Shown: positions 56,848-59,196 of the stretch, piece by piece
Numbering within the stretch: the first letter of the stretch is position 1
Layout of the letters: each line of letters begins with the position of its first letter
Assembly (NCBI RefSeq): GCF_002835935.1
Contig: NZ_PJCF01000006.1
Location: 434,001-498,000 of the forward strand
Origin: Paraglaciecola sp. MB-3u-78
GTDB taxonomy: Bacteria; Pseudomonadota; Gammaproteobacteria; Enterobacterales; Alteromonadaceae
DNA length: 64,000 bases
Direction of reading: 5' to 3'
The notes under the pieces: model-generated
Told to the model about the DNA's origin: nothing
The model's database searches: none
What the model saw: only the letters and a program-made list of their open reading frames with translations
Position numbers and translations under genes: made by a program

Positions 56848-57681
56848 GTGTCTTGCCCTTTTACTCTGCATTTTATCAGTAAATTTTTTGCAGCCATATC
56901 TTGTGTGTTGGTTACCTGCAGTTCTCTAGCGAACTCAGGTAGCTACTGCATGGATGATTGGGCCTGTGTTGAGAAAGTAGAACAAAACAAACAGGTTAGT
57001 TATTGGTTATACAATAAAAAACCCTTTGTGGTGACTGTCACTTTGGAAGTGGACACCAGTAACCTAAAAACTACCGCCTCAAACCAGCGCCAACATATTG
57101 TTAACCAAGTGCTTCAAGGGTATCAGCGAGTTAAAGTGCTTGAGTTGCACCCTATCAACACTAAGGGAAGAATTTGGTACGACGAATCCTTTTATTGGAC
57201 ACCAGGCAATATGCTGGCGCAGCATCAAAAGGATGCTGTTTATCAATATCCATATGCTGACGGTGATTATTTCCCCATAGTGCAAGGTTTTGGTGGCGGC
57301 TATAGCCATAGTGGTGCGTCTCAGTATGCTGTCGACTTTGCTATGCCTATAGGTACACCGATACATGCGGCAAGGGCAGGGATGGTGATTGATTTGGTTG
57401 AACAGCATTCACGTGGAGGTGCTAGTCGCAAATACGCTAAATATGCTAACTACGTAGTGATTTTGCATGGTGATGACACAACCGGTGAGTATTATCATCT
57501 AAGAAAGGATGGCGTTGCCGTGACCCAAGGTGAGCGCGTTGCTGCAGGTCAATTAATAGGTTATTCGGGTAATACAGGCTTTTCTTCTTTGCCACATTTA
57601 CACTTTGCGGTTTATCACGCAAAACCCTTTGGTAAGTATCAATCATTGCCTTTTGCGTTTGAACCTAGATCCCGCAGTTAA
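56848..57681 (+). CDS. M23 family metallopeptidase (C-terminus changed by an insertion)
   Basis: A 277-residue exported peptidase with a signal peptide (GTG start) and an M23/LytM domain. The zinc ligands are H154 and D163 (HSGASQYAVD) and H252 in PHLHF, with H250 as partner. It should cut peptidoglycan cross-bridges, or act as a non-catalytic activator if degenerate, but all ligands are present. A MITE inserted at the original stop codon: codon 272 (GAA) was followed by TAA, and the element now adds PRSRS and supplies a new TAA. Function is probably unaffected. Confidence 0.88.
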   Translation: MSCPFTLHFISKFFAAISCVLVTCSSLANSGSYCMDDWACVEKVEQNKQVSYWLYNKKPFVVTVTLEVDTSNLKTTASNQRQHIVNQVLQGYQRVKVLELHPINTKGRIWYDESFYWTPGNMLAQHQKDAVYQYPYADGDYFPIVQGFGGGYSHSGASQYAVDFAMPIGTPIHAARAGMVIDLVEQHSRGGASRKYAKYANYVVILHGDDTTGEYYHLRKDGVAVTQGERVAAGQLIGYSGNTGFSSLPHLHFAVYHAKPFGKYQSLPFAFEPRSRS

Positions 57682-57826
57682 ACCACGAGAAATAGCGGCA
57701 TCCACTGATGCGCCTAGCTATGGGAAAAAAGTTCTCATCACCAATAAGGTGACTACGAATTTTTTCCCTACGCCAGTCACACCATTGGCTACCACTCTTC
57801 CCACGAGTTCAACTGCGGAATCTAGG
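57664..57826. mobile_element. 163-bp palindromic MITE with IS1380-like ends
   Basis: The element starts CCTAGATCCCGCAGTT and ends in the near-inverse (AACTGCGGAATCTAGG). It is one long imperfect palindrome centred on 57745. TTGAA is duplicated on both sides (57659-57663 and 57827-57831), a 5-bp target duplication. The CCTAGAT end resembles IS1380-family termini such as ISEcp1. No transposase is encoded, so it would move only in trans. Confidence 0.85.
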
Positions 57827-57856
57827 TTGAATAAAGACTAAGGATTGTGCCTATAT

Positions 57857-59196
57857 TTACCAAGTTGTTGCTAATAGTGCTAGGATCTTTTCTGCCGGAA
57901 CCGGTTTAGAAAAGTAATAATCTTGTAAATGTCGACATTTGTTCTTTTTGAAAAATTCGACTTGCTCAATAGTTTCAATACCTTCAGCTACGCAGCTCAT
58001 TTTTAATTGTTTGGCCATACTTAGCGTGGTGAGGATAATGGTCTCATTATTTTGATTTTTAGAGGATCAAAAAAGATGAGGCCTTTTGGTGAGCCGTAAA
58101 CCATACGCCCATCCAATAGCGTTAAACTGGTGTCTGAATTAAATTCACTATTGGCTAAACCTTGTTCTTGGTCAAATTTTTGTATCTGATGGTTTTGAGA
58201 CGAAAATTTAATCAGACCAGAGTTAGAGCCTAACCAAATATTGCCTTTGGTATCTAGTTGCATATCAAAGATTGCATTATTTGGCAGTAAATTTTGTTTG
58301 TTATAAAAAAACTTTTTTCATGTGTCAGTGCATCAATACCCACCAATCCATAGCCTGGATAAATTATCCACATAATGTTATTAGCGTCTATTAATACGTC
58401 ACTGGGATACACCTTTGATTTTAATTGTTGCAGAGGGGGTTCATGGATTGATGTAACTTGTGTCTGCATACAACATCTTAACATTTAGGCTATCTATTGT
58501 TGTTGCGACTGATTGCGCATAGTTAATTAAAAGAGGTGTGTTGCTTCCTCTTTCAACCGCAAATAAACCATCTCTTGTGCCTATAAAAAGAATGTTCTGT
58601 GACAATAAATGGGCTCTTACATAATTCCCGTTAGCAATCATTGTATCTGACAACGAATACTCAACAGAAAGCTTATCGGTGACGTAAGAATAGGAATAAA
58701 CACCCTCATCCATCGAGAATAATATGTCTCCCTTTTCGTCTTCGCTAATGTAACTCGCTTCTTGAGTTAGTTGATTATCCCGTTGTAACCTTAAATTGAT
58801 AACGTGTTTGGTAGTATTATTTATGAGGTTATATTGGTGAACGCCTTTGACAGAGTCACAGACCCAAAGATTTCTTTTTGAATCTTGAAATAAGTAATTG
58901 ATCGGAGCATCATTGAATTCATTGTTCGGGCCCAGTACATGTTGGTTTTGATAGCCATCAAACCGGTTTAACCCCTCAGCAGTGCCCAGCCATAAAAAAC
59001 CTTCATTATCTAGCAATAACGAGTTGATAGTATTCTGAGATAAACCATTTTCTGTGGATAAACGAGAAAATGTCGGATCTGCGATCAACGGCTTACTTTG
59101 ACTCACAAATGAAATGAGCAGTAATAACACGAGAACTGAAAGATAATACTTCTTTGGCCCAAAGTAGAGGCTATTTATCGATTTGTATTGGTACAT
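57857..59196 (-). pseudogene. Broken sensor: two-component-type beta-propeller fused to an EAL tail
   Basis: From 59196 down, a signal anchor and Reg_prop propeller repeats are read (LSTENGLSQNTINSLLLDNE, GFLWLGTAEGLNRFDG). Frameshifts near 58450 and 58280 interrupt them; the later repeats are in other frames (GNIWLGSNSGLIKF). Near 58050 the sequence jumps to the C-terminus of an EAL phosphodiesterase domain (LKMSCVAEGIETIEQVEFF, DYYFSKPVPAEKI), ending at 57857. The Y_Y_Y, membrane, GGDEF and most of the EAL regions are deleted. The parent was a propeller-GGDEF-EAL c-di-GMP sensor. Confidence 0.8.

Follow-up and report, generated by a model that had tools for sequence, protein, structure and literature searches.

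A MITE with IS1380-type ends at the stop codon of an M23 peptidase gene in Paraglaciecola, and a tip-anchored palindrome in related elements

IS1380-family elements duplicate 4–5 bp of their target, and ISEcp1-like elements can mobilise adjacent DNA by means of poor right ends. A partner transposase in the same genome is common for MITEs but not required. MITEs are already known to make new C-termini: the accessible parts of two papers describe this for RU-1 (ERIC) in an amidase gene and for QMITE2 in enhC (PMC2759123, PMC5896051). Internal palindromes lie near the tips of piggyBac and piggyBat; the piggyBac complexes show C-terminal domains bound to the internal palindrome as a dimer, at just one of the two ends, and in cells the ends have to be asymmetric (accessible text of PMC7351741 and PMC11707139). 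The transposases of the IS1380 family are related to piggyBac just distantly, according to the part of PMC10140906 that is accessible.

We analysed a stretch of 64,000 nucleotides from Paraglaciecola sp. MB-3u-78 (the window). An earlier note had claimed that a 163-bp imperfect palindrome with CCTAGATYCCGCAGTT ends and TTGAA on both sides is inserted here at the former stop codon of an M23 peptidase gene, and our analysis confirmed this arrangement. The element (57664–57826) is an imperfect palindrome with a left terminal inverted repeat of CCTAGATCCCGCAGTTAAA (57664–57682, plus strand) and a right one that reads CCTAGATTCCGCAGTTGAA on the minus strand (57808–57826). It is preceded by one copy of the target duplication TTGAA (57659–57663) and followed by the other (57827–57831), after which comes a TAA on the plus strand (57832–57834), the former stop codon of the gene. 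The present M23 reading frame (56848–57681, plus strand) encodes 277 amino acids, has the peptidase domain PF01551 at residues 159–258 (E 1e-21) and ends with FAFE-PRSRS. Its last five residues (PRSRS, 273–277) and its new stop codon (TAA, 57679–57681, within the left terminal repeat) are element sequence. The five-residue tail lies beyond the peptidase domain and probably has little effect on the enzyme.

The ancestral state predicted in the same note was found in relatives. Among 22 genomes of the genus searched for the peptidase, an orthologue was readable through its C-terminus in 12 besides the own genome; the PRSRS tail is absent from all 12, and the closest orthologues show the predicted empty site. 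Both G001 and G019 read TTTGAATAAAGA there, which is the window sequence minus the element and one TTGAA, while G015 reads TTTGAATAAC, and the position of the stop codon is equal in all three. The window insertion is a clean example of a mobile element giving a gene a tail and a stop codon, with the ancestral state still readable in relatives. An in-frame, RPE-like role was considered, one frame of the element being open and the element plus the duplication measuring 168 bp, and was dropped because 162-bp relatives would not keep the frame. The converging neighbour on the minus strand (57860–59196) looks broken; it includes a Reg_prop sensor fragment (PF07494) and, on the side nearer the element, short frames with stops, which we take to resemble the end of an EAL-domain protein.

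The element is a MITE: it is 163 bp long, has repeats at both ends, contains no transposase gene and exists in multiple copies flanked by target duplications. Three copies lie on a single contig of the own genome (100, 98–99 and 92% identity), with the duplications TTGAA, TTTAA and ATTAT; the best two sit at different sites and show 2 differences over 163 bases, so movement was recent. Six of 147 genomes matched the element: the own genome, four with a full copy flanked by an exact 5-bp duplication (TTTAA in G019, ATCAT in G060, ATAAA in G017, TTCAA in G146), and G115, whose match was dropped as it is 26 bp long. The earlier note had made the insertion model depend on duplications at further copies, and exact 5-bp duplications were present at 7/7 close full copies in five genomes. 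The own genome also has a fourth IS1380-type MITE (L309:2571–2806, C23:530570–530805; 236 bp), which belongs to another subfamily; it has a TTGAA/TTCAA-type duplication, a one-mismatch copy at 77 bp of the palindrome described below, and a downstream reading frame that presumably begins like cca. Of the same subfamily there is also a lone end (L011/L310, C4:167013–167031), followed by a frame which we take to begin like yacG.

The proposal that an IS1380-family transposase gene with the same ends might be found was borne out in other genomes but not in the own genome. PF13701 (DDE_Tnp_1_4), the domain present in the IS1380-family transposases analysed here, had no match in the own genome, and the element is therefore an orphan MITE whose mobilising partner is absent or lost. 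In the 295 genomes of the family, 7 matched PF13701 at E ≤ 0.001 and just 1 over the cut-off; given this and its absence from the own genome, a partner was not identified. Within the order, 7 of 394 genomes contained the end pattern (one mismatch allowed). A terminal-repeat search of genome contigs matched at least 117 stretches; the 80 matches listed came from MAGs and genomes of several phyla, foremost Ectothiorhodospiraceae, other Gammaproteobacteria and Verrucomicrobia, and PF13701 was over the cut-off in 8 of 16 genomes carrying such matches. Two complete IS1380-family elements have ends of like kind on either side of a PF13701 transposase gene: L191 (1581 bp, ATAAA duplication, transposase of 499 amino acids) and L193 (1517 bp, TTGAT duplication, 475 amino acids), the right end of the latter being identical to that of the window element over 19 letters. 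The IS1380 reading of the note is thus supported by terminal repeats that IS1380-family elements elsewhere share, and the 5-bp duplication of the MITEs, L191 and L193 agrees with the value for the family. All three checks that the note had suggested came out in favour of insertion. Two MAGs, G660 and G661 (loci L071–L150), bear a heavy MITE load, with 105 and 127 such ends when as many as two mismatches are allowed; PF13701 had no match in G661, and no such ends were found at L190, the intact transposase of G660. For most class-level transposases the inverted repeats that could be guessed did not convince and were set aside.

The ends formed 105 distinct pairs, of which the 64 with an exact 5-bp duplication were kept for target counts (at least 29 of these copies come from one MAG), and the other 41, among them 22 that are one mismatch off, were left out of the target and gene-end counts. 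Position 2 of the duplication is T and position 4 is A in 64/64 copies, and both outer positions are A or T in 63/64; WTNAW fits 63 of the 64 exact duplications, and the TTGAA noticed earlier is one case of this target. One of the seven close copies, L018 (G017), missed the end pattern and stands outside the 64; its ATAAA fits WTNAW as well. The claim that the element brought its own stop codon also held with a refinement, as the stop is built into the terminal repeat and is not special to the M23 gene. Its first frame encodes P-R-F/S-R-S, or a variant of these five residues, ahead of a stop, and in another frame it gives TAG immediately. As TAG or TRA thus occurs in two of the three frames, a gene into which the element inserts close to the end stops no more than five residues later. 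Among ORFs of 100 codons or more, nine run into one of the 64 elements, and three of them gained a five-residue tail: PRSRS (window, L015), PKSSS (L019, G146) and PRFRS (L134). The PxxxS tail thus arose at three separate copies.

MITEs with unlike interiors have a palindrome in common, TCACC-N5-GGTGA. The best match per element was exact in 42 of the 64 MITEs, had one mismatch in 14, two in 4 and more in 4, giving 60/64 at up to two mismatches (a separate count gave 62/64; 60 is used here). In single-letter shuffles of the interiors, exact matches occurred at 0.01% and one-mismatch matches at 0.37%. Within one mismatch the palindrome was found in 56 of 64 MITEs, mostly 75–77 bp from one tip; at up to two mismatches, 50 of 60 palindromes lie 74–78 bp from the nearer tip, and three further ones, in 124-bp elements, are 77 bp from the other tip. 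Around 145 ends (related copies included), exact palindromes peaked inward at 75–77 bp (33) and at 145–148 bp (26), the second peak being the same site viewed from the far tip, with 6 scattered ones outward. In the window element the palindrome (TCACC-AATAA-GGTGA, 57738–57752) is the exact centre, 75 bp from each tip. A literature search, with subscription literature mostly outside its range, found no report of TCACC-N5-GGTGA in the titles and abstract openings of the top-ranked matches, and none was found in those of the top-ranked matches on IS1380 MITEs; one MITE paper among the IS1380 matches ascribes its MITE, in its accessible part, to IS1182 (PMC11578231).

The same palindrome is present in some full IS1380 elements and missing from others. 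It lies at 90, 89 and 88 bp in L191, L193 and L192 (the last with a worn tip and without a matching duplication), at 77 bp in the Polaromonas element L311, at 78 bp in two Aliarcobacter elements (L312, with one mismatch, and L320), and 76 bp inside the transposase-proximal end of ISEcp1 (L321) and ISEnca1 (L314); right ends were not located in L312, L314 and L321. L194 also bears it, its tip being cut off by the contig edge. Each of the five full elements inspected over its whole length (L191, L192, L193, L311, L320) has exactly one palindrome, at a fixed distance from one tip as in the MITEs. Five of 11 plasmid-borne IS1380 elements had no palindrome within one mismatch (L313, L316, L317, L318, L319; L315 is unsure), and the duplications of L317, L318 and L319 are 4 bp long (CTAG, CTAT and CTAG); L225 had none and L224 has one with two mismatches. 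On a tree of 29 transposases the nine palindrome carriers, two of which are near-copies, need 3 changes compared to a shuffled mean of 7.8, and 0 of 500 shuffles were as low. Just past the Polaromonas element, at the right edge of L311 (2782–2796 and the last bases), there is a second CCTAGAAACAGCAGTT end with a palindrome at 77 bp.

Could the tail and the palindrome be an old part of the M23 gene, with TTGAA flanking them by chance? We found no evidence favouring this, and its probability is close to nil: the lack of PRSRS in every readable orthologue refutes it, and seven copies at differing sites with matching 5-bp duplications also speak against it. To look at gene ends, insertions were compared with WTNAW sites in the same flanks (63 of the 64 entered, one lying too near a locus end). 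ORF interiors were avoided (11/63 insertions vs 50.2 expected, ORFs of at least 80 amino acids). Of the 52 insertions at non-coding sites, 8 have a duplication that overlaps a stop codon (2.30 expected, p 0.0015) and 12 have one that lies within ∼5 nt of a stop codon (3.65 expected, p 0.0005). This stop-adjacent excess was seen in close copies (3/6, 0.44 expected), in the Ectothiorhodospiraceae MAG (5/22, 1.80) and in the rest (4/23, 1.41). Start codons within 15 bp showed no clear excess (9/52 vs 7.66), and within 100 bp the excess was mild for both starts (31 vs 24.7, p 0.03) and stops (26 vs 20.1, p 0.04; n = 52). All these p-values are rough, given mechanical ORF calling and the relatedness of copies from the same MAG. 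The stop-codon enrichment exceeds what the WTNAW motif and avoidance of genes account for. It could mean that the element is retained as a transcription terminator or mRNA 3′ stabiliser, with which its strong RNA fold (z = −7.86; 0/200 shuffles equally good) also agrees. We regard such a role as improbable, as strong folding needs no function in a palindromic MITE (such a fold is what one expects of a long imperfect palindrome), insertions do least harm at gene ends, and a terminator scan of 57500–58000 gave just two weak sites, on the minus strand (shuffle mean 0.6, sd 0.7). A promoter scan found none, and two Rfam matches far under gathering scores were taken as chance.

The palindrome itself may be a second transposase site, which we propose by analogy with the internal palindrome of piggyBac. 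We judge it an even chance that ISEcp1-like IS1380 elements and the MITEs share a previously unrecognised module, TCACC-N5-GGTGA mostly 75–78 or 87–90 bp from one tip (two distance classes that differ by roughly one turn of the helix), to which a transposase dimer binds in the manner of piggyBac. The main rival, possible though rather unlikely, is that the palindrome controls the transposase gene, either as an operator or as a hairpin at the start codon, and survives in MITEs only because they are internal-deletion derivatives of full elements. In several elements it does sit on or close to the start of the transposase gene: its first base precedes the annotated start by 7 nt in L311, L312 and L320, and in L311 and L320 the start is inside it. 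However, its distance follows the tip and not the gene, the called start being 26–29 nt upstream of the palindrome in L193 and L191 and 111 nt downstream in ISEcp1 and ISEnca1. Moreover, across 18 clusters the stretches beside the conserved palindrome carry little information; since only rows with the palindrome were included, the conservation score of the palindrome there is inflated. If the palindrome is a transposase site, it would offer a handle on end asymmetry in bacterial piggyBac relatives and a better way to find such elements. A shared module would render one end strong and leave the other permissive, could explain how neighbouring DNA is carried off with poor right ends, and would tie the bacterial IS1380 family mechanistically to piggyBac. 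More widely, the family to which ISEcp1 belongs gains a testable rule set, made up of a WTNAW target, a bias towards stop codons and a tip-anchored buried palindrome.

Taken as a whole, we are highly confident in the following explanation of the locus. An IS1380-family transposase, now missing from this genome, is predicted to have moved the non-autonomous element in trans, and the element entered the M23 gene at its last codon, duplicating TTGAA. The data show the insertion, the duplication, the empty site, the shared ends and the WTNAW targets. The terminal repeat closes such a gene within five residues, here by PRSRS-TAA. Weighing against the explanation are the missing PF13701 match in the own genome, the lack of such ends at L190 and the IS1380 elements that lack the palindrome. 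The transposase may recognise both the tip repeat and the TCACC-N5-GGTGA palindrome ∼75 or 88 bp inside one end, the latter bound perhaps by a dimer, in a similar way to the internal palindrome of piggyBac. Selection, an insertion-attracting feature of gene 3′ ends, or both may produce the gene-end bias.

Compared with known systems, the window element shares CCTAGATTC-type tips with the ISEcp1-like elements of the IS1380 family and an internal palindrome with ISEcp1 and ISEnca1, whereas ISEcp1 departs from it after CCTAGATTC (CCTAGATTCTACGTCAGT) and the window element, unlike ISEcp1-like elements, has no transposase gene. The layout of TCACC-N5-GGTGA recalls the piggyBac and piggyBat ends, with their internal palindrome near the tip (accessible text of PMC7351741 and PMC11707139); those elements are eukaryotic, differ in palindrome sequence and distance, and target TTAA. 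Like ERIC (RU-1) and QMITE2 at gene 3′ ends, the window element is a small non-autonomous element that gives a new C-terminus, although those tails, as far as the accessible parts of the papers tell, are tens of residues long and the window tail is five (PMC2759123, PMC5896051). Their sequences and target duplications are unlike those of the window element, yet the window case is of the same kind as the C-termini made by RU-1 (ERIC) and QMITE2.
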